A stretch of DNA of 64,000 nt from Aminobacter carboxidus (GTDB lineage: Bacteria > Pseudomonadota > Alphaproteobacteria > Rhizobiales > Rhizobiaceae): contig NZ_JACZEP010000003.1 of assembly GCF_014863355.1 (NCBI RefSeq), positions 1 to 64,000 on the forward strand. Direction: 5' to 3'. Position 1 is the stretch's first letter; the number at the start of each line of letters is the position of its first letter. Shown in pieces: positions 6,217 to 27,540 of this stretch. The position numbers and the translations under genes were made by a program. Below the pieces are notes generated by a model that made no database searches, was not told where the DNA came from, and saw nothing but the letters and a program-made list of their open reading frames with translations.

Positions 6217-6248
6217 GGCCCCCGTGTTCCTTTACATTGGTAACAGCC

Positions 6249-10164: not shown

Positions 10165-10198
10165 TGGACATTCGTATTGACACAAATACAGATGTTCA
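10165..10198. promoter_or_regulatory. Site A: candidate SorC operator over the DRL/E1/E2 operon promoter
   Basis: Inverted repeat with left arm TGGACATTCGT (10165-10175), a 12-base gap and right arm ACAGATGTTCA (10188-10198). The arms match at 8 of 11 positions. The gap holds a perfect TTGACA (10177-10182), a likely -35 element; the -10 is weak, as is common in this group. The right arm resembles those at 22672 and 31120, and the arm length and 12-base gap equal those at 31097-31130. Binding by the SorC regulator at 28488 or 30002 is inferred from proximity and family habit. Confidence 0.6.
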
Positions 10199-10246
10199 TT
10201 ACCTCTGAGCGCAATTGCAGTGCCTTTGCTCGGGAGGAACCATCGG

Positions 10247-11572
10247 ATGACCATCAACGTCGCACCAGTCGGCTTGGCGCGGGACCTCGTGGAGCGGCAG
10301 AAGTCGGGCAAGCCGATCCGCATCGGGCTGATCGGCTCTGGCGAGATGGGCACCGACATTGTGGCGCGGGTGGCACACATGCCGGGCATCGAGGTCGGCG
10401 CGATCTCCGAGCTCAGCCTGCCCAATGCGCATCGCGCCGTTGACATTGCCTACCAGGAGAAGGGCCATGCCCGCGAAGTCGGTAGCGGCTCGGCGCTGAA
10501 CGAAGCCATCGAGGCCGGCAAGATCGCCGTCACCAACGATGCCGACCTGATCCTCAACAGCGGCCTGATCGACGTCGTCATCGATGCGACGGGTGTGCCC
10601 GCCGTCGGTGCCGAGATCGGCCTGCGCGCCATGGAGCATGGCAAACATCTGGTGATGATGAATGTCGAGGCCGACGTCACCATCGGCGCTTATCTCAAGT
10701 CGGAAGCCGACCGTCTTGGCGTGACCTATTCGCTCGGCGCCGGCGACGAGCCGTCGTCCTGCATGGAGCTGATCGAGTTCGTCTCGGCGATGGGCCACAC
10801 CATCGTGGCCGCCGGCAAGGGCAAGAACAACCCGCTCAACATCGATGCGGTGCCGCACGACTATGCCGAGGAAGCCAAGCGCCGCAACATGAACGTGCGC
10901 ATGCTCGTCGAGTTCGTCGACGGCTCCAAGACCATGGTCGAGATGGCGGCGATCGCCAACGCCACGGGGCTGGTGCCCGACAAGGCCGGCATGCACGGTC
11001 CGGCAGCGACCTTGCCGGAGCTCAACAAGGTGCTTGTGCCCGAAAAGGACGGCGGCGTGCTGACCAGGGTCGGCGTCGTCGACTATTCGATCGGCAAGGG
11101 TGTGGCGCCTGGTGTCTTTGTCATCGCCGACATGTCGCATCCGCGCATCCGCGAACGCATGGAAGACCTGAAGATGGGCCATGGTCCGTATTTCACCTTC
11201 CACCGGCCCTATCATTTGACCTCGCTCGAGGTGCCGCTGACCTGTGCCCGTGTGGTTCTCTACGGCAAGGCCGACATGGTGCCGCTGGCCAAACCGGTGG
11301 CCGATGTCTGCGCCGTTGCCAAGAAGGACCTGAACCCCGGCGACGCACTCGATGCCATCGGTGAATACACCTACCGCGCCTGGATCATGACGACGGGCGA
11401 AGCACGTGCGGCGAAAGCCATCCCGTGCGGCCTGCTGCAGGGCGGCACGGTCACCGCGCCGATCAAGAAGGGCGAACTGATCACATCAGCCAACGCAGCG
11501 GTCGCGCCAAACTCGAAGATCGCCGAGCTCAGGGCACGTCAGGACCGGCTGGTCTATGGAGCGGAGGCATGA
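10247..11572 (+). CDS. DRL-type oxidoreductase (DXR-like, SAF domain)
   Basis: A 441-residue NAD(P)-binding oxidoreductase with GLIGSGEMG (about 27-35) as dinucleotide loop and a C-terminal SAF-like domain (IKKGELITSANAA). From memory it is very like the Brucella abortus DRL protein along its whole length, including the N-terminus, GAGDEPSSCMELIEFVSA, KGKNNPLN and GPYFTFHRPYHLTSLEVP. DRL interconverts 1-deoxy-D-xylulose 5-phosphate and 2-C-methyl-D-erythritol 4-phosphate. Automatic annotation often calls this family homoserine-dehydrogenase-like or FlgA-like. GGGAGGA gives a strong ribosome binding site. Its ATGA overlap with an E1alpha gene and the SorC-type site upstream suggest a catabolic role here, running in the oxidative direction. 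A related substrate cannot be excluded. Confidence 0.8.
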   Translation: MTINVAPVGLARDLVERQKSGKPIRIGLIGSGEMGTDIVARVAHMPGIEVGAISELSLPNAHRAVDIAYQEKGHAREVGSGSALNEAIEAGKIAVTNDADLILNSGLIDVVIDATGVPAVGAEIGLRAMEHGKHLVMMNVEADVTIGAYLKSEADRLGVTYSLGAGDEPSSCMELIEFVSAMGHTIVAAGKGKNNPLNIDAVPHDYAEEAKRRNMNVRMLVEFVDGSKTMVEMAAIANATGLVPDKAGMHGPAATLPELNKVLVPEKDGGVLTRVGVVDYSIGKGVAPGVFVIADMSHPRIRERMEDLKMGHGPYFTFHRPYHLTSLEVPLTCARVVLYGKADMVPLAKPVADVCAVAKKDLNPGDALDAIGEYTYRAWIMTTGEARAAKAIPCGLLQGGTVTAPIKKGELITSANAAVAPNSKIAELRARQDRLVYGAEA

Positions 11573-12603
11573 CAGTGGCCCAGGCTAAGCCCAAGGACCT
11601 GCCGGTGGGTGCGAACCTGCCCTTCATCTACCGCGAATACAGCGCCGAGCGGCTGAAGCAGGCGTTGCACAAGATGTATCTCATCCGCCAGTTCGAAGAG
11701 GGCGCGGAAGAGTCCTATATGCGCGGCCTGATCCACGGCACGATGCACCTGTCCATCGGCCAGGAAGCCAGCGCCATGGGCATCTGCATGCCGCTGACCA
11801 ATGACGACCAGATCACCTCGACACATCGCGGCCATGGCCACTGCATCGCCAAGGGCGCGGAAGTGTCGAGGATGTTCGCCGAGTTCTTTGGCAAGACGAC
11901 GGGCTATTGCGGCGGCCTTGGCGGCTCGATGCACATTGCCGACGTGTCGACCGGCAATCTCGGTGCCAACGGTATCGTCGGTGGCGGCATTCCGATCGCC
12001 GTGGGTGCTGCACTCACCGCCAAGCGTCTGAAGTCGGACCGCGTCGTCATCTCCTTCTTCGGCGACGGCGCCAACAATGAGGGCGCTTTTCATGAGGCGC
12101 TCAATATGGCCTCGTTGTGGAAGCTGCCGGTCATCTTCGTCTGCGAAAACAACGGCTATGGCATGTCGACCTCGATGGCCCGCTCGACGGCGGTGCCGAA
12201 TGTCGCTGATCGTGCTGCGGCCTATTCGATGCCGGGCGTGATCGTCGACGGCAACGTGCTGTCTGATGTTGCCGAAGCCAGCCATGAGGCGGTTCGCCGG
12301 GCGCGGGCGGGCGAGGGGCCGACGCTGATCGAATCCAAGACCTACCGTTATCGCGGCCACTCCAAGAGCGACCGCAACCGCTACCGGACCAAGGAAGAGA
12401 TCGAGGACTGGATGACCAACCGCGATCCGATCGTCCGCTATGAAAATGAACTGATGGAATTCGGCATCATCGACAAGGCCGGCGTCGAGGCCATCCGCGA
12501 GGCGGTTGCCAAGGAAATCGCCGACGGCATCGAGTTCGCCAAGGCAAGCCCGTCGCCCGAGATTCGCGATCTCGAACGCTACGTCTACACGGAGACTGTG
12601 TAA
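11569..12603 (+). CDS. Thiamine-diphosphate-dependent dehydrogenase E1 alpha subunit (acetoin/pyruvate type)
   Basis: A 344-residue E1alpha. The thiamine diphosphate motif runs from GDGANNEG (starting at 165) to ENNGYG (NN at 194-195), and THRGHGH (85-91) is the active-site loop. The ATG overlaps the DRL stop by ATGA, so a much longer upstream frame is not used. With the E1beta at 12603 it forms the heterotetrameric decarboxylase or cleaving component. The adjoining E2 is of acetoin-dehydrogenase (AcoC) type, so the complex probably cleaves an acyloin rather than decarboxylating pyruvate. Coupling to DRL makes 1-deoxyxylulose 5-phosphate, itself an acyloin, a candidate substrate. Confidence 0.88.
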
Positions 12604-13601
12604 TGGATCAGGCCGTGCGTGAGCTGAGCTATGCCCAGGCGATCCAGGAAGCCATGGCGATCGCCATGGAGACCGACGAGCGCGTGTTTTTGATGGGCGA
12701 GGATATCGGCGTCTATGGCGGTGCCTTCCAGGTCACCGGCGATCTTGTCGAGCGTTTCGGTGCCGACCGCGTCATCGACACGCCGATCTCCGAACTCGGT
12801 GGCGCCGGCGTTGCAGTCGGTGCCGCGGTGACCGGCCTCAGGCCGATCTTCGAGTTCCAGTTCTCCGACTTCGCCACGCTTGCCATGGAGCAGATCGTCA
12901 ACCAGGCCGCCAAGATGCGCTACATGCTGGGTGGCGCGGTTTCGGTGCCCGTGGTCATGCGCTTTCCGGCAGGGTCAGGTACTGGTGCCGCCGCCCAGCA
13001 CAGCCAGAGCCTCGAGGCTTGGCTCGGCCATGTGCCCGGTCTCAAGGTCATCCAGCCGGCGACCCCATACGACGCCAAGGGCATGTTGCTCGCGGCTGTT
13101 GCCGACCCGGATCCGGTGATGATCTTCGAGCACAAGCTGCTCTACAAGACCAAGGGCCCGGTGCCCGAGGGCTATTACACCGTGCCTATCGGCAAGGCGG
13201 CGATCCGCCGCGAAGGCCGAGACCTGACCATCGTCGCCACTTCGATCATGGTGCACAAGGCGCTTGAAGCCGCCAAGACGCTCGAGGCCGAGGGCATCGA
13301 CGTCGAGGTCGTCGACCTGCGCACCATCAGGCCGATGGACAAGGAAACCGTTATCGAAAGCGTCAAGAAGACCTCGCGTCTACTCTGCGTCTACGAAGGC
13401 GTGAAGACGCTCGGCGTCGGCGCCGAAGTCAGCGCCATGATTGCCGAGAGCGAGGCCTTCGACTTCCTCGACGCGCCGATCGTTCGCCTTGGCGGCGCCG
13501 AGACGCCGATCCCCTACAATCCGGACCTTGAAAAGGCGACCGTACCGCAGGTGCCCGACATCCTGGCCGCCGCGCGCAGCCTCGCCATGGGGGGCCGCTA
13601 G
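12603..13601 (+). CDS. Thiamine-diphosphate-dependent dehydrogenase E1 beta subunit (acetoin/pyruvate type)
   Basis: A 332-residue transketolase-like E1beta with the pyrimidine-binding half ([28 protein letters not shown]) and the C-terminal transketolase domain ([15 protein letters not shown]). The start ATG shares one base with the TAA of E1alpha (TAATG). It completes the E1 heterotetramer. Size and motifs do not separate pyruvate, acetoin and related acyloin enzymes; the E2 architecture is the better guide. Confidence 0.9.
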
Positions 13602-13604
13602 GCC

Positions 13605-14969
13605 ATGCCGGTCGAAGTAATCCTGCCCAAGGTCGACATGGACATGGCGACCGGACGCATCTCGCGCTGGTATGTCGGCGAAGGTGCGACGGTCAAGAAA
13701 GGCGACCTGCTGTTCGAGATCGAGACCGACAAGGCGGCGATGGAGATCGACGCGCCGGCCTCCGGCACCATCCGCGACATATCGGGCAAGGAAGGCATCG
13801 ACATCCCGGTCGGTGAAGCCGTGGCCTGGATCTATGCCGAAGGCGAGGCGACCAAGCCGGCGAAGGATGCTGTTGCCGATGCCACGCCAGTGCAGGAAGT
13901 CGTGCCTGCTGCGGCTGCTCCGGTCGCGGCAGCTCCGGCCGCTCTGCCTGAACTCGCGCCGGCGAACCCAGGCAAGCCGTCGAATGGCACCCGCGCCACG
14001 CCGCTGGCTCGCCGTCTGGCGGCGGCGGCCGGTTTGCAGCTCGATGCCATCGCCGGTTCCGGGCCCCGAGGCCGCGTCATGCGCAGTGACGTCGAGACAG
14101 CCATTGCGGCGCCTGCGCCGGCGGCATCTGTTCCGGCCAAGCCCGCTCCCATCGTTTCCAGGCCGTCGGCATCCTCCCAGCCACGGCCGGCGCCACAGCG
14201 GTCCGCTGGCGCGGCACCGCTCAACTTCGCCTGGCTGCGACAGGGTGAAGGGCGACCGATCGTGCTGATCCACGGCTTCGGCGCGGACCTCAACAGCTGG
14301 CGGCCGATGCTGGCTGCCGGCCCCGTCGATGCGCCATTGCTGGCGCTCGACCTGCCCGGACATGGCGGCTCACCACGCCAGACGCCTGCCGACCTCGATG
14401 CCATCGCTTGTGATGTCGAGGCAACGCTGGCAGCACTCGACGTCGGCCCGGCGCTGCTCGTCGGACACTCCTTTGGCGGAGCCGTGGCGGCGACCGTCGC
14501 CGCGCGTGGCCATGCCGATGTCCGTGCATTGGCCCTGATCGCCCCTGCGGGCCTCGGGCCTGAAATCAACGGTGCCTTCCTGCAGGGCTTCGTACGGGCC
14601 AAGAGCGAAGCGAGCCTGACGCCCTGGCTGCGGCTGCTCGTCGCCGACGAGGCGGTGCTGTCAAAACCCTTCGTCAACGCGACGCTGGCGCAGGCAGCCG
14701 ATGCCGAGTTGCGCGCCGCGCAAGCCGAGATATCGGACCGCTTCTTTGCCGACGGCACCCAGACCTTCGACATCAGGGGGCTGCTGGCGGCCTTGCGCAT
14801 GCCGGTCCGTGTCATTGTCGGTGCCAACGACCGGATCATCCCAGCGAGCCAGTCTCTGGGACTGCCTGGCGAGGTGGCGCTGCATGTGTTTGCGGCCACC
14901 GGCCACATGCCGCAGGTCGAGCGGCGCGAGCAAGTGCTGAAAATCCTGCTGGAGATGGTGCGGGTCTAG
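13605..14969 (+). CDS. E2 of acetoin-dehydrogenase type: lipoyl domain + E3-binding domain + alpha/beta-hydrolase
   Basis: A 454-residue protein with three parts. Residues 1-78 are a lipoyl domain with the lipoylation lysine K43 in ETDKAAME. After an Ala/Pro linker, residues about 128-167 form the peripheral subunit-binding domain (TPLARRLAA, GSGPRGRV). Residues about 205-454 form an alpha/beta-hydrolase with HGFGADLNSW, nucleophile S289 in GHSFGG, an aspartate in GANDRIIP and the histidine of TGHMPQVE. The usual acyltransferase domain of pyruvate dehydrogenase E2 is replaced by the hydrolase fold, as in AcoC proteins. No E3 (dihydrolipoamide dehydrogenase) gene lies nearby, so E3 must be shared. 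Confidence 0.9.
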   Translation: MPVEVILPKVDMDMATGRISRWYVGEGATVKKGDLLFEIETDKAAMEIDAPASGTIRDISGKEGIDIPVGEAVAWIYAEGEATKPAKDAVADATPVQEVVPAAAAPVAAAPAALPELAPANPGKPSNGTRATPLARRLAAAAGLQLDAIAGSGPRGRVMRSDVETAIAAPAPAASVPAKPAPIVSRPSASSQPRPAPQRSAGAAPLNFAWLRQGEGRPIVLIHGFGADLNSWRPMLAAGPVDAPLLALDLPGHGGSPRQTPADLDAIACDVEATLAALDVGPALLVGHSFGGAVAATVAARGHADVRALALIAPAGLGPEINGAFLQGFVRAKSEASLTPWLRLLVADEAVLSKPFVNATLAQAADAELRAAQAEISDRFFADGTQTFDIRGLLAALRMPVRVIVGANDRIIPASQSLGLPGEVALHVFAATGHMPQVERREQVLKILLEMVRV

Positions 14970-14982
14970 CAGCTTTTCTTCT

Positions 14983-15011
14983 AGATCCTCGCGCTGCCAG
15001 CGCGGGGATCT
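14983..15011. terminator. Hairpin between convergent E2 and RpiR genes
   Basis: AGATCCTCGCGCT (14983-14995) and AGCGCGGGGATCT (14999-15011) pair along 13 bases with one G-U wobble and a 3-base loop. There is no T-run on either side, so it may be a weak or factor-assisted bidirectional terminator between the rightward E2 gene and the leftward RpiR gene. Confidence 0.5.
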
Positions 15012-15040
15012 GGCATTCGTTGGCAGCTGGCTCCGCTGGA

Positions 15041-15895
15041 TCAGCTCTCGAAATCGCCAAAAGTATTCTGCAGCCGGGTCAGCAGGTCGACGCGTTCGCC
15101 GACCTCGTCGCCGAGCAGCACGATGATGTTGCTCAGCATCAGGTCCATCACCGCGATGATCGTTGCCGAGCCGTCCCAGAGCGGACCGTGCGATCCTGGT
15201 ACGACGAGGCAGATGTCGGAAACCTCCGGCCCCCACGGGCAGAACTCGTCGGTCAGCAGAACGACCTTGACGCCCATACGCCTCGCCTCCATGGCGAGCG
15301 GGCGTGCCTTGGCAGCAAAGCGGCGGACGTCGTGCAGGAACAGCACGCGACCCTCGACCGAACCGTCGAGCAGTTCGGCATAGGTACCGTTCAGCCCGTC
15401 GACGAACTGCACGCGCGGCCGTGTGTAGGATAGCTGGCTGGCGAAATACTGGGCGATGCCGCGGACGTTCTGGTAGGCCGCGACATAGACCTCGCTCGCC
15501 GAAACCAGGGCGTCGATCGTCTGCTGCCACTCAGGTGCGGCGGTCAGCTCGTAGATCCGGCCGAGATTGTCGATCTGCTGCTGGATGAGCCCGGCGAGCA
15601 GCTTGCCCTCGCGGATATCTTCCCGGAAGCGGTCGACCGGTCCCTTGACCTGCCAGGCGGGGTTGGAGCTGCCGCGCCGCAACTCGTGCTTCAACTGGTC
15701 GAGGCCATCGAAGCCCATGCGGCGCAGGTAACGCCCGACGGTCATCGGCGACAGTTCGAGGCGGGTGGCGATGGATCGCGCCGTCTCGAACGGGATTTCA
15801 GCCAGGTTGCGCTCGATGTAGTTCGCAATCAGCTTGTCGGATTTCGACCGCCTCAGCTCCTCGCTTTGCACGAGCTTCAGGATTCGCTGCGCCAT
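15041..15895 (-). CDS. RpiR/MurR-family transcriptional regulator
   Basis: A 284-residue regulator with an N-terminal HTH_6 domain (about 1-77, with PFETARSIATRLELSPMTVG as the recognition region) and a C-terminal SIS phosphosugar-binding fold (about 120-240). It follows the polyamine-type binding protein gene on the same strand, 31 bases downstream, and probably controls that transporter. RpiR proteins usually sense phosphosugars, but those beside amino-acid or peptide transporters may sense other ligands. Its effector is unknown. Confidence 0.88.
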   Translation of the reverse strand: MAQRILKLVQSEELRRSKSDKLIANYIERNLAEIPFETARSIATRLELSPMTVGRYLRRMGFDGLDQLKHELRRGSSNPAWQVKGPVDRFREDIREGKLLAGLIQQQIDNLGRIYELTAAPEWQQTIDALVSASEVYVAAYQNVRGIAQYFASQLSYTRPRVQFVDGLNGTYAELLDGSVEGRVLFLHDVRRFAAKARPLAMEARRMGVKVVLLTDEFCPWGPEVSDICLVVPGSHGPLWDGSATIIAVMDLMLSNIIVLLGDEVGERVDLLTRLQNTFGDFES

Positions 15896-15926
15896 GTCCT
15901 CTCCGGCCGGCCGCCTGGTGGCGGGG

Positions 15927-17009
15927 CTACTGCGCTGTCTTCACCTTGGTCCAGACCCGGTCAAGCTGGCGCAGACCTGGGCCCAAATCCTCGAAGATCT
16001 GCAGCCGCTGCATCGTCTCGGGCGAAGGATTGATCTCCTTGCTATTCTTGATGTTGTCGGGGGTCAATTGCCGTGCCGGCACGTTGGCCGTGCCGTTCGT
16101 CTGCTGCGAAACGTTGAGTGCCGCGATCTCGGGACGGGTGTAGAACTGCAGGAACTTGAGCGCGCTGTCCTTGTTGGGCGCGGTCTTGAGGACGCAGATG
16201 TCCTCCTGATACATGGTGGCGCCTTCTTCCGGGATGACGTAGCCGAGGTCGGCCGTGTTGGCCAACACGTCGACCATGGCGCCGACGAAGAAGTGTCCCG
16301 CCGCAACGTCGCCCGACTGCACCATCGCGCGGGTCTCGTAGGTGAAGGCGGCAACGTCAGGCTTCATGGCGATGATCGTGTCGGCTGCCTGCTGTAACTC
16401 GGTGGGGTCGGTCGAATTGACCTTGTGGCCATTGAGGATCAGGCCAACTGCCAGAACCTCGCGCATGTCGTCGAGCAGCGTGAACTTCAGGCCCTTGGCT
16501 TCGACGGTGGCGATCAAATCCTTCCAGCCGGTGATGTCCTTGCCGAGGATCTTGCGGTTGTAGAAGATGCCCACCGAGCCGAATGCGTAGGGCAGGCAAT
16601 ACTCGCCCTTGGGGTCGCTCTTGGCGCGCATGAACCCCGGATCGATGTTCTTGAAACCCTCATAGGTGTTGATGTCGGTTTTCTCGAGCAGGTCGAGCTT
16701 GGCCATGATGTCTTGCATGTGCACCGAGGGGAAGACGATGTCGTAGCCCGTGGCTCCGCCCTGGATCTTGGCCAGCATCTCCTCGTTCGACGAGTATGTC
16801 GACAGGTTGACCTTGATCTGGGTCTCTTCCTCAAACTTCTTCAGCACCGCTGGATTGATGTATTCGCCCCAGTTGTAGATGTTGAGCTCGGCAGCGGCGG
16901 CAGGCGCCACCGTTACGGCAACCGCCGCAAGCGAAATTGCCGCGACCTGCGCCAAAAGGCTCCGCCTGGTCGGCAGGATGCCGGCGAGGGCATGGTTCAT
17001 GATCCTCAT
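15927..17009 (-). CDS. Polyamine-type (PotD/PotF) ABC transporter substrate-binding protein
   Basis: A 360-residue periplasmic protein. The N-terminus has a twin-arginine pair (PTRRSLL) before a hydrophobic stretch ending in APAAAAE, so export may use Tat. The mature protein opens with LNIYNWGEYINPAVLKKFEE, the hallmark of spermidine/putrescine binding proteins. GAGGAGAA precedes the ATG at 17009. It diverges from the ATPase/permease genes beginning at 17162, so the binding protein and regulator form one transcript and the transport core the other. The ligand may be a polyamine, opine or peptide-like compound; the coupled peptidase at 19990 favours an amide or small peptide. Confidence 0.88.
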   Translation of the reverse strand: MRIMNHALAGILPTRRSLLAQVAAISLAAVAVTVAPAAAAELNIYNWGEYINPAVLKKFEEETQIKVNLSTYSSNEEMLAKIQGGATGYDIVFPSVHMQDIMAKLDLLEKTDINTYEGFKNIDPGFMRAKSDPKGEYCLPYAFGSVGIFYNRKILGKDITGWKDLIATVEAKGLKFTLLDDMREVLAVGLILNGHKVNSTDPTELQQAADTIIAMKPDVAAFTYETRAMVQSGDVAAGHFFVGAMVDVLANTADLGYVIPEEGATMYQEDICVLKTAPNKDSALKFLQFYTRPEIAALNVSQQTNGTANVPARQLTPDNIKNSKEINPSPETMQRLQIFEDLGPGLRQLDRVWTKVKTAQ

Positions 17010-17161
17010 CGAATTCTCCTCTGTTGGTGTCTGCCCATTGCAGGCCGGCCTTCGAGTGCTCCGGCTACGGCTTCTGGCGGCCGTTGACTTGAATGATCAA
17101 ATGGTATCCAAATCTCTCGATCGCACAAGAGTTATTTAGATAACAATTCGGGGAACGGCAG
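17010..17161. promoter_or_regulatory. Divergent control region of the polyamine-type transporter
   Basis: A 152-base region between the binding-protein gene and the ATPase gene. It holds a TTGACT (17084-17089) and an AT-rich stretch up to 17145 with TGATCAAATG and TATTTAGATAAC, a plausible place for promoters and an RpiR operator. The TGATCA here resembles only half of the SorC-type half-site, so I do not count it in that set. GGGGAA gives the ribosome binding site for 17162. Confidence 0.4.
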
Positions 17162-19151: not shown

Positions 19152-19162
19152 GGGAGAGACCC

Positions 19163-19993
19163 ATGAAGATCGCTCGTTTCCTCTTCCGTGGCTCCCTGTT
19201 TGCCTACACGGGGCTGTTCTTCGCCTTCATCTACATTCCGCTGGTGCTGATCGCCGTCTATTCGTTCAATTCCAACCCGGTCAACATGATGACCTGGACC
19301 GGCTTCACCACCGAATGGTACGCGCAGGTTCTCGGCTTCAAGACCACCATCTCCGAGAATGCGCTGTACATCGAGTCGACCGACCAACTCGTCCAGGCCG
19401 TCTGGAACAGCCTGATCATTGCCGGATCCACCACGGTGATCGCCACTGTCCTGGGCACGGCTGTGGCCATCGCGCTCTACCGCTTCGCCTTCTTTGGCAA
19501 GCGCTTCTATCGCACGGTCATGTTCATGCCGATGCTGATGCCCGACATCGTGCTCGGCATCGCTCTGCTGATCTTCTTCGTCAATTCGGGCATCAAGCTC
19601 GGCCTGACCACGATCATCATCGGCCAGTGCACCTTCCTGATCTCTTATGTCTTCATCGTCGTCTCGGCGCGCCTGGCCGGCATGGACCGCACGCTTGAAA
19701 ACGCCTCCGCCGATCTCGGCGCCAATGAGTGGGTGACCTTCCGCAAGGTGGTGTTCCCGCAACTGCTGCCAGGGATCGTCGGCGGCGCCCTGCTGGCCTT
19801 CATCATCTCGATGGATGATCTCGTCATCACCTACTTCATCGCCGGCGTCGACGTGACGACGCTGCCGATGTTCATCTTCGCCATGCTCCGTCGCGGCATC
19901 AAACCCGAGATCAACGCCATCGCGGTGATGATGCTCTCCTTCTCCTTCGTCGTGGCCTCGCTTGGCCTCTACCTGCGCTCACGGCAGAAATGA
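19163..19993 (+). CDS. Polyamine-type ABC transporter permease (PotC-like)
   Basis: A 276-residue membrane protein with the IPLVLIAVYSFNSN start and an EAA loop (ENASADLGANEWVTFRKVVF) typical of PotC/PotI. The ATG at 19163 has GGGAGAG before it; the frame is open upstream but inside the previous gene. It overlaps the peptidase gene by ATGA, so transporter and peptidase are translationally coupled. Confidence 0.9.
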   Translation: MKIARFLFRGSLFAYTGLFFAFIYIPLVLIAVYSFNSNPVNMMTWTGFTTEWYAQVLGFKTTISENALYIESTDQLVQAVWNSLIIAGSTTVIATVLGTAVAIALYRFAFFGKRFYRTVMFMPMLMPDIVLGIALLIFFVNSGIKLGLTTIIIGQCTFLISYVFIVVSARLAGMDRTLENASADLGANEWVTFRKVVFPQLLPGIVGGALLAFIISMDDLVITYFIAGVDVTTLPMFIFAMLRRGIKPEINAIAVMMLSFSFVVASLGLYLRSRQK

Positions 19994-21129
19994 CCTCGAT
20001 GACCAAAACGAATTCTCCTGCTGTCAAAGCCCGGGCCCGCGATCTCGGCTTGCCATTCCCAGGCCGCACCGGTCCGCTCAACGCCATCACCGATGTCGAG
20101 GGTATCGGCGTCGGATTCCGGACCATCCTCGAGGATGTGCCTCGGCCGGGCCGCAAGCGTCCGGTGCGCAGCGGCGTCACCGCGATCATGCCGCATGCGG
20201 CTTCGCCGACGCCGGTGCCGGTCTATGCCGGCGTGCACCGTTTCAACGGCAATGGCGAGATGACTGGCACCCACTGGATCGAGGATGGCGGCTACTTTCT
20301 CGGGCCGGTCGTCATCACCAACACCCATGCCGTCGGCATGGCCCACCATGCGACAGTCAGATGGATGCTGGAGCGCTACGCCTCGACCTATGACACTGAC
20401 AGTTTCCTCTGGATCATGCCGGTCATTGCCGAGACCTATGACGGTGTCCTGAACGACATCAACGGCCTGCCGCTGACCGAAGCGGATGTCAGGGCTGCCC
20501 TGGATAATCTGTCATCGGGGCTGGTGCAGGAAGGCAATTGCGGCGGCGGCACCGGCATGGTCGCTTACGGCTTCAAAGGCGGGACGGGCACGTCGTCGCG
20601 TATCGTCGAGTTTGGCGGTCGTGAGCACAGGATCGGCACGCTGGTCCAGGCCAATCATGGCCAGCGTGACTGGCTGACGATCCGGGGCGTGCCCGTTGGC
20701 GAGCACATGCGCGACGGCACGCCCCAAAGCCAACTCGCCGAACGCGGTTCGATCATCGTCGTCATCGCTACCGACCTGCCGATGGCGCCGCACCAGCTGC
20801 AGCGGCTGGCGCGGCGCGCTTCCATCGGCATCGGCCGTGGTGGTACGCCCGGCGGCAACAATTCCGGCGACATCTTCCTGGCGTTCTCGACCGCCAACCC
20901 GCAGCCCATGGCCCACCGTGCGCCGGCAAAACTGAGCCTCGAAATCGTCAATGACGAGAAGCTGGACCCGGTCTATGCCGCGACCGTCGACAGCGTCGAG
21001 GAAGCCGTCGTCAATGCGATGCTGGCAGCTGAAGACGCCGGCGGCACCGCCTTCGACCGTTTCCGTATCAAGGCCATGCCGCATGATCAGCTGGTTGCGT
21101 TGATGCGCGACCACGGCCGAATGGGCTAG
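19990..21129 (+). CDS. P1 (S58) family self-processing aminopeptidase, DmpA/BapA type
   Basis: A 379-residue N-terminal-nucleophile hydrolase. The conserved EGNCGGGTGM (181-190) and the autocleavage region GGNNSGDIFLAFSTAN are present, with S292 as the expected new N-terminal nucleophile after cleavage between N291 and S292. Family members include DmpA of Ochrobactrum (L-aminopeptidase/D-amidase/D-esterase) and beta-peptidyl aminopeptidases; they release N-terminal residues from small peptides and amides. There is no signal peptide, so it acts in the cytoplasm on imported material. It is the last gene of the transporter operon, suggesting the ligand is an amide or small unusual peptide. Confidence 0.88.
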   Translation: MTSMTKTNSPAVKARARDLGLPFPGRTGPLNAITDVEGIGVGFRTILEDVPRPGRKRPVRSGVTAIMPHAASPTPVPVYAGVHRFNGNGEMTGTHWIEDGGYFLGPVVITNTHAVGMAHHATVRWMLERYASTYDTDSFLWIMPVIAETYDGVLNDINGLPLTEADVRAALDNLSSGLVQEGNCGGGTGMVAYGFKGGTGTSSRIVEFGGREHRIGTLVQANHGQRDWLTIRGVPVGEHMRDGTPQSQLAERGSIIVVIATDLPMAPHQLQRLARRASIGIGRGGTPGGNNSGDIFLAFSTANPQPMAHRAPAKLSLEIVNDEKLDPVYAATVDSVEEAVVNAMLAAEDAGGTAFDRFRIKAMPHDQLVALMRDHGRMG

Positions 21130-21156
21130 CTGCGGCGACAGGCGCGCGGGTTGTCG

Positions 21157-21825
21157 TCAGACGAAGCCGCGCTCGCGCAATTCGGCTGAAACCTCGTCCC
21201 AACTGCCGCAGACGGCTGCTGCGCCCGCCGCGAGAAGTTCGGGTCCGTGGCCGTCATGGGTATGGCCACCGCCGACATAGCCGATCGCCACCATACCGGC
21301 AGCGACCGCGCCCTGCACGCCGTAGCGCGAGTCCTCGATCACCACCGACCGCTCAGGCGCAAAGCCCATCTTTTTTGCGGCATAGAGGAAGATGTCGGGC
21401 GCCGGCTTGCCGTTCTTCACCATCGACGAGCTGAAGATCGACGGGCCGAAATAATGCGCCAGGCCGGTGACCTCAAGGCTGTGGTTGATACGTTCGACCG
21501 AAGAGGATGAAGCGACGCAGCGGGCAACTTCGAGCCGGGACAGGAACGCGGCGATATCGAGCGTCGATGCCAGCTGTTCGGTGAACAGCGCCTTGGTCTC
21601 GCCCCAGATGTCGTCGGTGGCGTTTTCGGGCAGGAGTTGGCCGGTAAGTTGGTGGATCTTGGCGATGATGTCAGCCTGCTTCATGCCGACGCAATGCGAA
21701 ATCACCTCTGCCTCGATCTTGAGCCCGTTCTTGGCATAAGCGCGCACGTAGGCAAGCGCTGCCAGCGGCTCGCTGTCGACGAGCACACCGTCGCAATCGA
21801 AAATCACCAGGCTGTCGTTGGGCAC
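21157..21825 (-). CDS. HAD-superfamily hydrolase (phosphatase or beta-phosphoglucomutase-like)
   Basis: A 222-residue HAD subfamily IA protein with motif I DCDGVLVDSE near residue 10, a helical cap, motif II at ASSSS, and motifs III/IV in GKPAPDIFLYAA and VIEDSRYGV. It opens with GTG at 21825 after GGAG. Such enzymes dephosphorylate small sugar or polyol phosphates. It runs in the same direction as the unknown gene at 21919-22551, 93 bases upstream, and may share its promoter next to the PTS operon. Confidence 0.87.
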   Translation of the reverse strand: MPNDSLVIFDCDGVLVDSEPLAALAYVRAYAKNGLKIEAEVISHCVGMKQADIIAKIHQLTGQLLPENATDDIWGETKALFTEQLASTLDIAAFLSRLEVARCVASSSSVERINHSLEVTGLAHYFGPSIFSSSMVKNGKPAPDIFLYAAKKMGFAPERSVVIEDSRYGVQGAVAAGMVAIGYVGGGHTHDGHGPELLAAGAAAVCGSWDEVSAELRERGFV

Positions 21826-21918
21826 GTCGGTCTCCAGAAACTTATGCGGCTCACGCCGCCCTTCGTCGAAATGAGGCTGCCGCGGACATGCCGTGCCGCA
21901 ACTGCGATGGTTGGAAGT

Positions 21919-22551
21919 CTAATCCCGGCCTATCGCTTCAGGCCGTGGCGAAGCCTGCAACGCGCGCTGCATGGCGCTGCGCTCTTCCGGCAGGTCGGGT
22001 GCGAGCCAGTTGGGCTCGGCGCCGAGGAAGCGGTCGAGATAGGCGACGGCGTAGCTTGGCATCTCGGCGGTGTTTTCCTTGTAGGACCACCAGGTCCTGA
22101 GATCGTCGGCGCAGGCATCGAGGGCAGGGGCCTCGCCAAACTCTTGTTCGAACAATACCGCAATCGAGCAGACGCAGAAATTGGTGTAGACGAAACCCTC
22201 CGGCCAGAACCGTACGATTTCGGGAACTTGAAGCGCTGGCGTATTCGCGCTGGGCGCATCTGTGGCCTGTACAGGCGCTTGCTTGATCAGTTCCTTGAGC
22301 GCCAAGCCTGCGGCGTAGACGATGAAGTCGGCACGGTCGAGCTGTGCATATGATTTTTGGGCGTTTACGATCTCGACCCAGTCGAGGAAGATGCGGGTCA
22401 GTTTCTTCTCGTCGATATCGAAGTGGATGCCATATCGGGCGGTGATGGCGCGCGCACTGTTGCGGAAGGTTGTGCGGAACCAACGCAGTTGCCTGAGCCT
22501 GTGGCGGAGGTCGGGCACAAGCGCCAACTCGTTCTTGAAGATCAGGTCCAT
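21919..22551 (-). CDS. Conserved protein of unknown function beside the PTS operon
   Basis: A 210-residue soluble, aromatic-rich protein starting MDLIFKNELALVPD. I recognise no domain, signal peptide or membrane segment. CAGGAG precedes the ATG at 22551; an earlier in-frame start at 22605 lacks support. It is divergent from gutM (22746) with site B between them, so the SorC-type system may control both directions. It might be a regulator or an accessory of polyol metabolism, but the sequence does not decide. Confidence 0.65.
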   Translation of the reverse strand: MDLIFKNELALVPDLRHRLRQLRWFRTTFRNSARAITARYGIHFDIDEKKLTRIFLDWVEIVNAQKSYAQLDRADFIVYAAGLALKELIKQAPVQATDAPSANTPALQVPEIVRFWPEGFVYTNFCVCSIAVLFEQEFGEAPALDACADDLRTWWSYKENTAEMPSYAVAYLDRFLGAEPNWLAPDLPEERSAMQRALQASPRPEAIGRD

Positions 22552-22656
22552 CGTCGCAGTGCTCCTGCCCTGTCCGGAAGATACCACCGGCAGGCAAAAT
22601 GCCAAATGCCGCTGTGGATCGGAACCGCCGTGCGGGGGTGCCCAAAGTTATACATA

Positions 22657-22682
22657 TTGACATTCGTAAAGACAAATGTTCT
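22657..22682. promoter_or_regulatory. Site B: candidate SorC operator over the PTS operon promoter
   Basis: TTGACATTCGT (22657-22667) and ACAAATGTTCT (22672-22682) form an inverted repeat with a 4-base gap, best in the core ACATTCGT/ACAAATGT. A TTGACA (22657-22662) lies in the left arm. The right arm matches those of sites A and C. The gap is shorter than the 12 bases of the other two sites, so this may be a differently spaced or overlapping pair. It sits in the divergent region between the unknown gene ending at 22551 and gutM. Confidence 0.55.
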
Positions 22683-22745
22683 TTGATTGATATGTGAGCG
22701 GCTCAGCATATCGCCGCTCCGGAGGACTTCGGGAGGAGGAGCCTT

Positions 22746-23180
22746 ATGGCAATCTGGCAGTGGGGACTGCTGCTTCTGGGCGTCGTCTGGGCGCTGCAGT
22801 CGCTTGGCGTGTGGATTCAGATGCGGCACTACGCCGATGTCTTCAAGGGCATCACCGCAAAGTACCAGGATGGCTATGTCGGCGCCGGCAATTGCCGCGG
22901 CCGCCTCGGCAAGGGAACGATCGCGCTGATCGTGGTCACGCCGGACCTCAAGGTCCAGCGCGTGCTGACCATGACCGGGCGTTCGGTCTTCGCCAAGTTT
23001 CAGCGACATGAAAATCTTGAGGGAACTTCCCTCGATCAGCTCCGGTCCAATCCCGCGATACTGGGAGAGGGGGAAGCCGGTGTGGCGGAAGCCGTGAAGA
23101 AGGCGGTCGAGCAGGTCGACCGTACGCGGCTCGAGCCAAAGGGGCCCGGCCTCGCCGGCCTCAAGCCAGTGGGTACGTAG
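22746..23180 (+). CDS. GutM-family protein (glucitol operon activator family)
   Basis: A 144-residue protein with one N-terminal membrane segment (about 4-22) followed by a soluble domain containing YVGAGNCRGRLGKGTIALIVV, the conserved core of the GutM family. In enterobacteria GutM helps activate the glucitol operon. Here it opens the PTS operon behind a strong GGGAGGAGGA site. It may act as a membrane-tethered sensor or a structural partner of the EII complex. Confidence 0.85.
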   Translation: MAIWQWGLLLLGVVWALQSLGVWIQMRHYADVFKGITAKYQDGYVGAGNCRGRLGKGTIALIVVTPDLKVQRVLTMTGRSVFAKFQRHENLEGTSLDQLRSNPAILGEGEAGVAEAVKKAVEQVDRTRLEPKGPGLAGLKPVGT

Positions 23181-23232
23181 GGAACAGCACCTTCGGGCGC
23201 GATCTCTTGGGTGAGGATATCAAGGAGGAGAA

Positions 23233-23991
23233 ATGTCAGTCCTATCTATGTTGGCGCAGCACGCCGACATGGCCGTCCAGAACCTGCACGTCGCGGGTTC
23301 GATGGCCACGGATGCTGCAATTCACGGCAAGCTCGCCGTCAAGGGGGCAACGAATGATCTCGTCGTGCTCGCCCAGGCGAGCGGCGACCTGACCGTTGAG
23401 CAGTTCAAGGAAAAGCTCAACACCGTTGCCCAGGAGGAGCAGCTTGGCTGGCTCACCAGCATCGGCAAATACTTCATCGGCATCTTCCAGAAGGGCGGCG
23501 AGGTCTTCGCCGGCTTCGTCACCGGCATCATCCCGACGCTCGTCGTGCTGATGACGGCCTTCTATGCGCTGACCGAACTGGTTGGCGAGGAGAGGGTACA
23601 CGGCATCGCGCGTGGCGCCGGGCGCATCGCGCTGACCCGCTACACTGTTCTGCCGCTGATTTCGGTGTTCTTCCTGACCAACCCGATGGCCTACACCTTC
23701 GGCTCGTTCCTGGAAGAAAAGCACAAGCCCGCCTTCTACGATGCGGCGGTGTCTTACGTGCACCCGCCACTCGGTCTGTTCCCGCACATCAACCCGGGTG
23801 AATATTTCGTCTGGGGCGGCATTCTCGTGGCTCTGCTCGAGCTCGAGAAGAAGGGCGCTGTTCCCGGCGGCTACCACATCCAGGTCGCCATCTGGTACGC
23901 CATCGTCGGCCTCGTCGTCATCCTGCTCAAGGGCATGCTGACCGAGCGCATCACCGCAATCATGGCACGCCGCCAGGGCGTCGAGCTGTAA
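23233..23991 (+). CDS. srlA: PTS glucitol/sorbitol-family EIIC (SrlA-like), N-terminally extended
   Basis: A 252-residue membrane protein. From about residue 73 (IGKYFIGIFQKGGEVFAGFVTGIIP) it aligns by eye with E. coli SrlA, including the NPMAYTFGSF and GLFPHINPGE motifs. The first 70 or so residues are an extra soluble, helical segment that enterobacterial SrlA lacks. It forms the translocation path together with the product at 24008. The substrate is a polyol-like molecule; the family alone does not say which. Confidence 0.9.
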   Translation: MSVLSMLAQHADMAVQNLHVAGSMATDAAIHGKLAVKGATNDLVVLAQASGDLTVEQFKEKLNTVAQEEQLGWLTSIGKYFIGIFQKGGEVFAGFVTGIIPTLVVLMTAFYALTELVGEERVHGIARGAGRIALTRYTVLPLISVFFLTNPMAYTFGSFLEEKHKPAFYDAAVSYVHPPLGLFPHINPGEYFVWGGILVALLELEKKGAVPGGYHIQVAIWYAIVGLVVILLKGMLTERITAIMARRQGVEL

Positions 23992-24007
23992 GGGCGGGGA
24001 GGGGCAC

Positions 24008-25015
24008 ATGGCCAAGTCTTACAAGGCAGTCAAGATTTCCCGCGGCAAGAGCGGCTGGGGCGGTCCCCTGGTCGTCCAGCCGACGCCGGAACGCAACAAG
24101 GTCGTCTCCGTTACCGGCGGCGGCATTCACCCGGTCGCCGCTCGCATCGCCGAGATGACCGGCGCCGAAGCCGTCGACGGCTTCAGGTCGCCACCGGTCG
24201 AAGGCGAAATGGCGGTGGTCGTCGTCGATTGCGGCGGCACCGCGCGTTGCGGGGTTTATCCGCGCAAGCGCATTCCTACGGTCAACCTTACCCCGGTGGG
24301 GCAGGCGGGTCCGCTCGCCCAGTTCATCACCGAGGACATCTACGTGTCGGGCGTCAAGGAAAGCGACATCACCATGGCCGACGGTTCGGAAGCAGTGACA
24401 TCGGCAGGCGCGGCCTCCAACGCGAACAATGCCTCGTTCGCGACGGCGGCGAAGGCAGCACCGGTGGCGACCAACGACGGTGGGTTCATCAACCTGATCG
24501 CCAGCGTCGGCCGTGTCATGGGCCGCGTCGTCAACATCTTCTTCAATGCCGGCCGCCGTACCATCGACCAGGTCGTCCGCAACGTGCTGCCGTTCATGGC
24601 GTTCGTGACGATGCTGATCGGCCTGATCCTCTACACCGGCATAGGCGACGTGCTTGCCCAGCCGATGGGCCCGCTTGCCAACAACATCGTTGGCCTGCTG
24701 GTCATCTCGGCCATTTGCGGTCTGCCGTTCCTGTCGCCCATCCTGGGACCAGGTGCTGTCATCGCCCAGGTCATCGGCGTGGCCATCATCGGCCCGCAGA
24801 TTGCCAACGGCACGATCTCGCCGGCGATGGCGCTGCCGGCGCTGTTTGCCTACAACACCCAGGTTGGTTGCGACTTCGTCCCGGTCGGCCTGGCGCTCGG
24901 CGAGGCCAAGCCGAAGACCATCGAGATCGGCGTTCCTGCCGTTCTGATCAGCCGCCAGATCATGGGCCCGGTCTCGGTGCTCATCGCCTGGGCGGTCAGC
25001 CTGGTCGTGTTCTAA
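24008..25015 (+). CDS. srlE: PTS glucitol/sorbitol-family EIIBC (SrlE-like)
   Basis: A 335-residue protein. The N-terminal EIIB domain begins with GKSGWGGPLVVQPTP and carries the phosphocysteine motif DCGGTARCGVYPRKRIPT. After an Ala-rich linker (about 120-155) the C-terminal half is a membrane domain with NVLPFMAFVTMLIGLILYTG and LSPILGPGAVIAQVIGVAI, nearly the same as E. coli SrlE. It passes phosphate from EIIA to the substrate during uptake. Confidence 0.92.
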   Translation: MAKSYKAVKISRGKSGWGGPLVVQPTPERNKVVSVTGGGIHPVAARIAEMTGAEAVDGFRSPPVEGEMAVVVVDCGGTARCGVYPRKRIPTVNLTPVGQAGPLAQFITEDIYVSGVKESDITMADGSEAVTSAGAASNANNASFATAAKAAPVATNDGGFINLIASVGRVMGRVVNIFFNAGRRTIDQVVRNVLPFMAFVTMLIGLILYTGIGDVLAQPMGPLANNIVGLLVISAICGLPFLSPILGPGAVIAQVIGVAIIGPQIANGTISPAMALPALFAYNTQVGCDFVPVGLALGEAKPKTIEIGVPAVLISRQIMGPVSVLIAWAVSLVVF

Positions 25016-25131
25016 AACCCTTGCCCGGCGGCACATGCTGCCGCCGGGCGATCTTCCATCGCCGGCGCTGGCCGGCACCAAGCATCGTCCAGGCAGGCAT
25101 ATCGGCCTGGACCCATTGAAAGGCTTTGATC
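25016..25131 (+). other. Hairpin-rich spacer inside the PTS operon
   Basis: The 116-base gap between EIIBC and EIIA genes holds a perfect 11-base stem, GCCCGGCGGCA (25023-25033) with TGCCGCCGGGC (25039-25049), plus two weaker inverted repeats downstream (GCCGGC pairs and CCAGGC with GCCTGG). There is no T-run. It probably sets the relative amount of membrane and soluble PTS components through message stability or partial termination. Confidence 0.45.
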
Positions 25132-25512
25132 ATGTCGGTTCATCTCAAGACGCACATCACGGCAATTGGACCGGAAGTGGCAGAGCTGGCCGAAGGCGGC
25201 GTGCTGATCCTGTTCGCCGACGGCGCCCCGCCGGAACTTGCAGAGGTGTCGGTACTGCACAAGACCGAAGTCGGACCGAGTGACGCAGCCCCCGCCGTCG
25301 GTGCCGCGATCGTTATAGGCGAGCTCGAAGGCACCATCACAGCCATGGGCGACAGCGCCTGGAACAAGGTGCGCGAGATCGGCCACGTGGTCATCAATTT
25401 CAACGGTGCTGCCGCTGCCGAGCGGCCAGGCGAAATCTGCGCCTCGGCTGTCGAAGGCGAGGTGCTGGTCGCGGCCCTCAGGGCCGGCGCTACCATCACT
25501 ATCGGCCGCTGA
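25132..25512 (+). CDS. srlB: PTS glucitol/sorbitol-family EIIA (SrlB-like)
   Basis: A 126-residue soluble protein of the PTSIIA_gutA family, starting MSVHLKTHITAIGPEVAEL. The histidine in FNGAAAAERPGE-type surroundings (IGHVVINFNG) is the likely phosphorylation region. GAAAGG precedes the ATG at 25132. It carries phosphate from the HPr-EI fusion encoded next to the cysteine of EIIB. Confidence 0.88.
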   Translation: MSVHLKTHITAIGPEVAELAEGGVLILFADGAPPELAEVSVLHKTEVGPSDAAPAVGAAIVIGELEGTITAMGDSAWNKVREIGHVVINFNGAAAAERPGEICASAVEGEVLVAALRAGATITIGR

Positions 25513-25560
25513 TTGCGGCGCGTGACGCCGCTATACTGAACTGGAACAAGAGACCTGCCT

Positions 25561-27540
25561 ATGGAACGCTCGACGATCGTCAGAGTGCATGAAGGGCTGC
25601 ATGCCCGGCCCGCCACCCGCTTCGTCAAGCTCGCCAAGAGCTTCGAAAGCGAGGTCGAGATCATCAAGGACGGCAAGTCGGCCAGCGCCAAGAGTGCGGT
25701 CAAGCTGATGTTGCTCGCCGTCAAGGAAAACGACGAAGTCACTATCCGCACCAGGGGCGCCGACGAGATAGAGGCGGTGGAAGCACTGGTCGGCTATCTC
25801 GAGAACCCGCTCGCCGGGCTTGCCGAGGAGCAGGCACAGGCTGAGCCGGAAGCTGCCGCCGCCGCTGGCGTGACCCTCAAGGTCGAGCCGACCAAGTCGG
25901 CGGCATTCGAGGAAGAGGTATCAGGCGCATTGAAGGGCGTGGCCGCCAGCGAGGGCTATGCCGTAGGGGCCGCCTTCGCCCACTTCCCGCCCGAGATCAA
26001 GCCGGAGCGCCGCACGCTTTCGCTCGGCGACATCAAGGCTGAACTCGTCCGCTTCACTGATGCCGTCGAGGTCGTGCAGGCGCGCATGAACGCCTCGCTG
26101 GCATCGGACACGCTGTCGGCCAACGATCGCGGCATCATCGCCGCCCTGCGCGACATTGCCGCTGACGACGAACTGCGCGACGAGGTCGTCACTACAATCA
26201 ACACTGGCAGCGACGCCGTGACCTCGGTCATCGGTGCTGCCAGCAAGATTGCCGCTCAGTTCGGCCAGGTCGACGACCCCTATCTCAATGCGCGCGCCGA
26301 CGATGTCCAGGCGGTGGGCCGCCAGATCTGCCTGGCGCTGCTTGGCCAGGCCGACGTCAGCCTGGACGACATCCCTGAGGGTGCCATCCTGATCGCCGAG
26401 GACATCGGTGCCTGGGATCTCGCTCGTGCGCCGCTCAAGCGCATCGGCGGCATCGTCTGCGGTCATGGCGGGGCAACCTCGCACATCGCCATCATCGCCC
26501 GCGCCCACGGTATTCCGGCCGTACTCGGCATGGGCGCTCAGGTGCATGAGCTGGGCAAGGCGCGCGAAGTAGCCCTCGACGGTCATCGCGGCCACGTTGT
26601 CGCCAATCCCGAGGGCGCGGTGCTCGACCGCTTTCGTGCCCGCATCGACGAGGCCGCCCGTGAGCGCGAGGCGCTGAAGGCGTTCAAGGATACCACGCCG
26701 CACCGTGCCGACGGCACCGTCATCGAAGTGGCCGCCAATATCGGCTCGCTGGAGGAGATCGACGCCGCGCGTGATGCGGGCGCCATGGGCGTCGGCCTGT
26801 TTCGCACCGAGCTTCTGTTCATGCGCCACATGCACCTGCCGTCGGAAGACATGCAGGCCGAGACCTATGCAGCGCTGGCCAAGGCTTTCGCGCCTTATCC
26901 GGTCATCGTGCGCACCCTCGACATCGGTGGCGACAAGCCGATCTCCGGCATCGAGTTTCCTCAGGAGGAGAACCCGTTCCTCGGCTGGCGCGGCATCCGC
27001 ATGTGCCTCGACCGGCCCGACATCTTCAAGCCGCAGCTCCGGGCGCTGTTGCGCGCAGCCGTCCATGGCAACGTCAAGGTAATGCTGCCGATGGTCGCCG
27101 ACGTCGGCGAGGTGCGTGCCACGCGTGCCCTGATCGAAACCTGCAAGGCCGAGCTTGCGGTGGAGAAAATAGCCTTCGGCGAGTTCCAGCTTGGTGTCAT
27201 GATCGAGACCCCGGCGGCCGTTCTGATCGCGCCGGCGCTGGCCAGGGAAGTCGCCTTTTTCTCCATCGGCACCAATGACCTCACCCAGTACATCATGGCC
27301 GCCGACAGGCTCAATCCGACCGTTGCCAAGCTCAATGACGTCACCAATGTCGCCGTCATGTCGGCGATCGAAATGACGGCGAGGGCAGGGGTAGCGGCAG
27401 GGATCATGGTCGGCATGTGCGGCGAGGCGGCCGGCCGGCCTGACCTCATCCCCGAATTCCTGCGCATGGGCCTGACCGAACTGTCGATGAGTCCGGCCTC
27501 GATCCAGCGCGCCAAGAAACGGATCGCCGAGCTAAGCTGA
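25561..27540 (+). CDS. HPr-Enzyme I fusion (PEP-protein phosphotransferase) dedicated to the PTS operon
   Basis: A 659-residue fusion. Residues 1-86 are HPr with phosphorylatable H14 in GLHARPAT. After a short Ala/Glu linker, residues about 115-655 are Enzyme I, with the phospho-histidine H308 in GGATSHIAIIARAHGIPAVLG, the PEP-binding barrel (GVGLFRTELLFM, DIGGDKP) and the catalytic cysteine in GMCGEAAGRP. With EIIA, EIIBC and EIIC it makes a complete sugar PTS in one operon. Many alphaproteobacteria have only the regulatory nitrogen PTS, which would explain why the general components are encoded here. Confidence 0.93.
   Translation: MERSTIVRVHEGLHARPATRFVKLAKSFESEVEIIKDGKSASAKSAVKLMLLAVKENDEVTIRTRGADEIEAVEALVGYLENPLAGLAEEQAQAEPEAAAAAGVTLKVEPTKSAAFEEEVSGALKGVAASEGYAVGAAFAHFPPEIKPERRTLSLGDIKAELVRFTDAVEVVQARMNASLASDTLSANDRGIIAALRDIAADDELRDEVVTTINTGSDAVTSVIGAASKIAAQFGQVDDPYLNARADDVQAVGRQICLALLGQADVSLDDIPEGAILIAEDIGAWDLARAPLKRIGGIVCGHGGATSHIAIIARAHGIPAVLGMGAQVHELGKAREVALDGHRGHVVANPEGAVLDRFRARIDEAAREREALKAFKDTTPHRADGTVIEVAANIGSLEEIDAARDAGAMGVGLFRTELLFMRHMHLPSEDMQAETYAALAKAFAPYPVIVRTLDIGGDKPISGIEFPQEENPFLGWRGIRMCLDRPDIFKPQLRALLRAAVHGNVKVMLPMVADVGEVRATRALIETCKAELAVEKIAFGEFQLGVMIETPAAVLIAPALAREVAFFSIGTNDLTQYIMAADRLNPTVAKLNDVTNVAVMSAIEMTARAGVAAGIMVGMCGEAAGRPDLIPEFLRMGLTELSMSPASIQRAKKRIAELS

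Follow-up and report, generated by a model that had tools for sequence, protein, structure and literature searches.

A 64,000-nucleotide stretch of the Aminobacter carboxidus genome (contig NZ_JACZEP010000003.1, positions 1 to 64,000; here called the window; genome size 6.29 Mb) carries two gene modules that together probably encode a route for breaking down 2-C-methyl-D-erythritol or a closely similar 2-C-methyltetrol. A glucitol-type phosphotransferase system (PTS), in other genomes an ABC transporter plus kinase, would import and phosphorylate the substrate to 2-C-methyl-D-erythritol 4-phosphate (MEP). A DRL protein, an NAD+-type member of the type II 1-deoxy-D-xylulose 5-phosphate (DXP) reductoisomerases (DXR-II), would oxidise and rearrange MEP to DXP, which a thiamine-dependent E1 would cleave between C2 and C3; E2, with an E3 encoded elsewhere in the genome, would then transfer the two-carbon unit to CoA, so that acetyl-CoA, NADH and glyceraldehyde 3-phosphate are formed. 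Substrate, direction of DRL and reaction of the complex are read from gene content and sequence. This route had been proposed in a preliminary description of the same DNA, and the co-travel of the modules, a split in the DRL cofactor site and the clade formed by E1 agree in supporting it. Among the matches listed from an open-access subset of the literature, covered mostly at title and abstract level, none described a catabolic use of MEP, DXP or DXR-II. The genes of the two modules are as follows.

10247..11572, + strand: DRL (DXR-II), proposed NAD+-dependent MEP dehydrogenase-isomerase (PF21135; structure 3upl; 10/10 residues; Glu55)
11569..12603, + strand: E1 alpha of the proposed DXP-cleaving dehydrogenase (PF00676; clade analysis; Thr56)
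12603..13601, + strand: E1 beta of the proposed DXP-cleaving dehydrogenase (PF02779/PF02780; identity to DRL-type E1beta)
13605..14969, + strand: E2, AcoC-type, with lipoyl, E3-binding and alpha/beta-hydrolase domains (NF011457, 408.7 bits, cut-off 307)
22746..23180, + strand: GutM-like protein (PF06923)
23233..23991, + strand: PTS glucitol-type IIC (PF03608, NF049923)
24008..25015, + strand: PTS glucitol-type IIB(C), Cys75 in DCGGTARCG (PF03612/PF07663, NF049924)
about 25126..25512, + strand: PTS glucitol-type IIA, start uncertain (TIGR00849, 62 bits, below the cut-off of 189.55)
25561..27540, + strand: HPr-EI fusion, i.e. general PTS proteins within the operon (PF00381, PF05524, PF00391, PF02896)

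The first module is the DRL-E1alpha-E1beta-AcoC-type E2 operon that had been described at 10247-14969, and its coordinates and its Pfam and NCBIfam matches agree. DRL starts with the ATG at 10247 and ends at the stop at 11572, which the E1alpha ATG overlaps, and the ends of all four genes overlap or almost touch. The second module, ~8 kb downstream, was likewise borne out as a glucitol-family PTS (22746-27540) without a polyol-phosphate dehydrogenase: the genes are in place, the HPr-EI fusion has the HPr GLHARPA and EI GGATSH active-site motifs, and no match to E. coli SrlD was found at ≥90 bits within the 64-kb window. IIC, IIB(C), IIA, GutM and the active-site cysteine motif all resemble the glucitol/sorbitol PTS (SrlA-SrlE-SrlB, GutM), from which the window PTS differs in having no SrlD match, in its own HPr-EI fusion and in its pairing with DRL. 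The SrlA and SrlE equivalog models are passed (NF049923, 186.4 over 150; NF049924, 455 over 400), while scores lie below the cut-offs of the older TIGR00821 and TIGR00825 models, and IIA falls short of its equivalog and subfamily cut-offs (62 and 60 bits versus 189.55 and 165). The two modules are separated by genes for an RpiR regulator, ABC transporter, peptidase and HAD proteins, and the gene order from DRL as far as the SorC genes is identical on Aminobacter plasmid pANY103a.

Genomes in which DRL, E1 and PTS do not travel together had been named in advance as a point that would tell against the route, and co-travel was found across four phyla, in many gene orders and with swapped uptake modules. 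An alignment of four DRL sequences was used as the query of a scan, and the best 80 of 556 relatives, ranked by similarity to a Priestia DRL and hence a non-random sample, yielded 79 named loci from Bacillota, Chloroflexota, Actinomycetota and other groups; gene order was read by tblastn against reference proteins and linkage was judged within the fetched flanks. These loci comprise 32 with PTS and E1 (Bacillota 25, Chloroflexota 4, Actinomycetota 3), 17 with PTS only, 7 with E1 only, 6 with kinase only and 17 with none. Glucitol PTS and/or E1 thus accompany DRL in 56/79, as against 0/13 control loci hand-picked around related non-DXR-II oxidoreductases, one of which has E3-like and EI-like matches and another an SrlD-like match. 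Among the 82 DRLs in the named loci, 48 are chained to PTS genes (one strand, gaps <300 bp) and 22 to E1, 16 of these to both. Chance adjacency was rejected on the cross-phylum survey and the 13 control loci. In a survey of 397 Rhizobiales genomes, DXR-II (called at E≤1e-80) was present in 78, and the 93 loci obtained, excluding the two of the window's own genome, were divided into PTS plus E1 (12), E1 only (16), kinase only (9) and none (56). Glucitol PTS genes were found in 20/397 genomes, 18 of which also have DXR-II (base rate 78/397; Fisher p=4.6e-12); the 18 include genomes with PTS and DRL on separate contigs or far apart (G535, G589, G590, G628). G542, a PTS genome uncounted for DXR-II, has a DRL-E1-E2-PTS locus (L187) cut by the contig start. 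Where the PTS is absent, DRL-E1 often has genes for an ABC sugar transporter and for a PfkB kinase as neighbours (L007, L100, L103-L107), and in Chloroflexota relatives L222, L223 and L228 a single array reads SorC-GutM-IIC-IIB-IIB-IIA-DRL-E1alpha-E1beta-E2.

Other genes also recur around these loci. A second, galactitol-type PTS is found near DRL/E1 clusters, its IIC under 9 genus labels (L259:2029-5234, where a zinc dehydrogenase accompanies it, and L207:679-2939; also L013, L032, L059, L067, L069, L074, L168 and L222), and may feed a second substrate, e.g. a 1-deoxypentitol, into DXP. L209:14815-17013 carries a further annotated PTS IIC-IIA-IIB. In Rhizobium sp. L51/94 (L207:16817-21323) the PTS-DRL-E1-E2 cluster is followed by a thiamine biosynthesis operon (thiC, thiO, thiS, thiazole synthase, thiamine phosphate synthase, thiD), and a conserved small CxxC protein adjoins DRL in Bacillota (14 genus labels).

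By homology, the window DRL is a DXR-II with predicted DXP reductoisomerase activity. It matches Pfam DRL_cat (PF21135) with 227 bits, and aligns with the Brucella DRL structure 3upl at 705 bits, without a gap from residue 1 to residue 436 of 446. It also carries each of the ten residues (121, 174, 178, 191, 193, 229, 250, 320, 322 and 351) that a DXR-II study names for activity or divergence (PMC3847144). Plasmid proteins in six Aminobacter records are 96-97% identical to it. With near full-length homology and all ten checked residues alike, the same reaction is expected as for Brucella-type DXR-II, which serves isoprenoid biosynthesis, but the window DRL is linked to uptake and cleavage genes and its proposed direction is MEP to DXP. 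An acidic residue at the end of the second strand goes with a preference for NAD(H) in Rossmann-fold enzymes, basic residues with a preference for NADP(H). The window DRL has Glu55 at this cofactor site, where Brucella DRL has Ala-Arg-Arg, and Asp or Glu occupies position 55 in 97/98 PTS/E1-linked DRLs, the exception being one of the two L039 DRLs. The split is seen in both surveys: an acidic residue 55 is present in 29/29 linked, 8/9 kinase-only and 14/57 solitary Rhizobiales DRLs (p=2e-12), the non-acidic solitary ones mostly having TRRP or similar, and in 57/58 linked, 6/6 kinase-only and 8/16 solitary DRLs of the named loci (p=7e-6). Linked DRLs therefore look built for NAD+-dependent oxidation, which fits the direction from MEP to DXP. 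The substrate-anchoring residues Lys191, Lys193 and Thr229 are invariant across the 98 linked DRLs.

DXP is an acyloin, CH3-CO-CHOH-R. Given pyruvate and glyceraldehyde, pyruvate dehydrogenase (PDH) produces 1-deoxyxylulose, and aceE mutants make up for the loss of dxs, replacing DXS (PMC3424233), so the C2-C3 bond of DXP is expected to lie within reach of the PDH family. The proposed enzyme shares with DXS and the mutant PDH E1 the thiamine chemistry by which they attach a two-carbon unit to glyceraldehyde 3-phosphate; unlike them, the window E1 would run as a cleavage, draining to CoA via E2. Compared with the best E1beta of each of six Bacillota/Chloroflexota DRL genomes, window E1beta shows 58-66% identity; compared with the other two E1beta of its own genome it shows 46-47%, and one of these two was taken for PDH from its E2, E3 and LipA neighbours. 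In quick tree searches with some long branches, 63/82 E1beta rows fall in one cross-phylum clade (SH-aLRT 96) consisting of 60 DRL-linked rows, Bacillus altitudinis L259, L187 and L191, a PTS+E1 locus whose genome has its DRL on another contig. PDH, branched-chain and Aco-like rows lie outside, the sole Aco-like reference being Bacillus row L260, which we take to be such from its gene order. The window E1 thus did not group with AcoA/AcoB, and a plain acetoin or pyruvate dehydrogenase was rejected on the E1 trees. Window E1alpha scores below the cut-off of the PDH E1alpha equivalog TIGR03182 (372.5 bits versus 393.85); E1beta passes the PDH E1beta subfamily model NF006667 (408.6 over 321), yet falls in another clade than the PDH row of its own genome. 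Two odd linked rows having been dropped, Thr56 is present in 77/77 linked E1alpha rows and Asn128 in 74/77, and neither in any of 13 outgroup rows, with Phe replacing Thr56 in PDH and Aco-like rows; this suggests a widened E1 pocket.

When 14 genomes with PTS and DRL in an E1-free fetched locus were searched with Priestia E1beta, 12 carried an E1beta 65-92% identical to it outside the fetched locus, some perhaps barely past the flank (G778); in 13 other DRL genomes the same search gave four matches of 64-95%, whereas nothing exceeded 58% in nine genomes. The B. altitudinis E1beta is part of an E1-E2-E3-SorC cluster that shares 63-92% identity with its Priestia counterpart and adjoins the galactitol-type PTS and zinc dehydrogenase genes. 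Judged by phylogeny and residues, E1 is the dedicated partner of the linked DRL. The complex resembles acetoin dehydrogenase (AcoABC plus E3), which cleaves an acyloin to acetyl-CoA and an aldehyde, and the window E2 is likewise AcoC-type; it differs in that the window E1 does not fall on the branch of the single Aco-like Bacillus operon used for comparison, in that the proposed substrate is a sugar phosphate, and in that some linked complexes have an ordinary 2-oxoacid-type E2 (L007).

The two operons share an operator-like motif, as had been proposed, at the following sites.

10163..10200, + strand: promoter region of the DRL operon with its operator-like site (GACATTCGTATTGACA ... ACAGATGTTC); a similar site lies upstream of DRL in relatives
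22655..22684, + strand: operator-like site upstream of the PTS operon (GACATTCGTAAAGACAAATGTTC; motif counts, relatives)

GACATTCGTANNGACA occurs exactly twice in the 64 kb, at 10167 and 22659 (0.21 expected allowing ≤2 mismatches), as does the half-site ACANATGTTC, at 10188 and 22672 (0.22 expected), both expected counts being flattering because the patterns were derived from these same two sites. Conservation in relatives is the better support: of 46 upstream sequences drawn from 28 alphaproteobacterial loci and counting the two window sites, 21 agree with at least 11 of the 14 fixed bases of the longer motif, compared with 13/920 shuffled stretches, although the rows are non-independent because many of the source genomes are close relatives. 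An inverted repeat resembling the operator half-site (ATGTTCATTTGT/ACAAATGATCAT; 31096-31142) precedes the gene of a solute-binding protein and adjoins a second gene for a SorC-family regulator.

Several observations weigh against the proposed catabolic route. No E3 match was found at ≥130 bits within the window; this subunit would come from outside the locus. Six DRL-linked E1beta rows fall outside the clade (L044, L064, L067, L078, L090, L152), and in Listeria farberi and the 1.4 Mb genome of L029, both with PTS and DRL, the search with Priestia E1beta found nothing closer than 46% and 52%, respectively. Genome G485 (L186) has a glucitol PTS cluster with an E2-like match and no DXR-II detected in the genome, while a fourth Chloroflexota contig (L224), which starts inside a DRL 52% identical to the best reference and carries EI, had no E1 found in the 8.5 kb after DRL. 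Taking residue 55 as a sign of NAD+ use applies a rule for Rossmann folds in general, and the rule is not cleanly followed: the residue is also acidic in the 14/57 Rhizobiales and 8/16 named solitary DRLs, among them the solitary DRL of the window's own genome and a DXR-II of Oscillospiraceae (L048:7836-11302) that is clearly biosynthetic, following a fused IspDF and a GHMP kinase. Oxidation of MEP by DXR is also thermodynamically less favoured than reduction of DXP.

Of the alternatives, the same chemistry acting on another 2-C-branched polyol (2-C-methyl-threitol, apiitol or a homologue), with apiitol leading to xylulose 5-phosphate, is unlikely. The E1-free genomes of L. farberi and L029 could point to a product that needs no acyloin cleavage, and in L. 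salivarius PTS and DRL lie beside fructose-6-phosphate aldolase and transketolase. Xylulose 5-phosphate would, however, require no E1, which 12/14 of the genomes with E1-free loci retain, and the invariance of Lys191, Lys193 and Thr229 in the 98 linked DRLs also speaks against a different substrate. Salvage, in which the PTS delivers MEP directly to IspD for isoprenoid synthesis, is very unlikely: a linked DRL is the only DXR candidate detected in 12 Rhizobiales genomes, so the locus does touch isoprenoid supply there, but imported MEP enters after DXR, so that salvage needs neither DRL nor an acyl-CoA-forming E1-E2-E3, and the linked DRLs look NAD+-type.

It is equally improbable that the window merely brings together ordinary neighbours, namely a dehydrogenase for acetoin or pyruvate, a DXR-II that is redundant in isoprenoid synthesis and a PTS for sorbitol. 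The AcoC-type E2 and the PDH-like sequence of E1 would suit such a collection; the recurrence of the linkage across four phyla in many gene orders, the separation of the E1 clade from Aco-like and PDH rows, the missing SrlD match in the window and the Thr found in all 77 compared E1alpha rows, where PDH and Aco-like rows have Phe, would not. Catabolism of 2-C-methyl-D-erythritol or a close 2-C-methyltetrol remains the probable function, and it is readily open to genetic testing.

For the distribution of DXR-I, DRLs were counted as linked when next to E1, PTS, kinase or sugar ABC genes. Among the 78 Rhizobiales DXR-II genomes, DXR-I is present in 9/21 with all DRLs linked, 2/44 with solitary DRLs only and 0/13 with both (p=6e-5), a split blurred by G628, counted as all-linked solely via a distant FGGY match near a TRRP-type DRL, and by the solitary-only G535, which has PTS and E1 on another contig (L191). 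In the 12 Rhizobiales genomes in which no DXR candidate was found besides a linked DRL (kinase-linked only in two cases), IspG was present in 8/8 of those checked, so the linked DRL presumably makes MEP from DXP there. DXR-I is present in 33/50 named DXR-II genomes (50 of the 79 loci were examined), so DRL should be dispensable for isoprenoids in those 33. According to PMC3847144, eleven DXR-II sequences complement dxr mutants, DXR-II co-exists with DXR-I in some organisms, and DXR-II is reported to be active when taken from an organism that has only the mevalonate pathway or from another that has neither pathway.

The genome to which the window belongs has three PF21135 genes: besides the operon copy there is a solitary one on contig C4, and C15 carries a gene that is 33% identical. 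The C4 copy (L008:7246-8565), 99% identical to the operon DRL and the only other DXR-II found in this genome, shows 97.4% DNA identity to it over the gene, and no other part of the window matches its surroundings. Since the orthologue of the operon DRL in Aminobacter sp. SS-2016 has 90.5% DNA identity, the pair was copied or converted recently. By eye, the operator is partly retained upstream of the C4 copy and the ACANATGTTC half-site is lost. DXR-I was not found in this genome and IspG was, and we infer that what began as a duplicate of the catabolic gene has taken on a role in isoprenoid synthesis. The idea that the operon copy replaced an older housekeeping DRL in place was rejected, as the L008 flanks are unlike those of the 64-67%-identical solitary DRLs of relatives.

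On the whole, we lean towards a broader view in which DXR-II is catabolic at root: an NAD+-dependent MEP dehydrogenase-isomerase feeding an undescribed DXP-cleaving E1-E2-E3, with which bacteria would grow on plant- or isoprene-oxidation-derived 2-C-methyltetrols, and which was later recruited to isoprenoid synthesis, perhaps repeatedly, as in this genome with its solitary, recent near-copy and damaged operator. If so, the patchy distribution of DXR-II across bacteria would be explained, and its presence together with DXR-I, in mevalonate-only organisms or in those with neither pathway would make sense, its task being a catabolic one. Bacteria would run the opening two steps of isoprenoid synthesis in reverse for food, and the route would include a new thiamine-enzyme activity. 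2-Methyltetrols are isoprene oxidation products in aerosols, and the route would be a new sink for them. The presence of DXR-II alone would then be no proof of an isoprenoid role wherever it occurs.

The remaining genes of interest flank or separate the two modules, and no RNA elements were found in the window at Rfam gathering scores.

15041..15895, - strand: RpiR-family regulator (PF01418)
21157..21825, - strand: HAD-family phosphatase (PF13419)
28488..29501, + strand: SorC-family sugar-responsive regulator, after the PTS operon (PF04198)

The HAD-family phosphatase is recurrent beside the PTS in Alphaproteobacteria (11 loci, 7 genus labels). At 1630-8848, a Rieske oxygenase, a ferredoxin-type reductase, an adenosine deaminase and a BMP/PnrA-type ABC transporter resemble a cluster for purine/nucleoside use.

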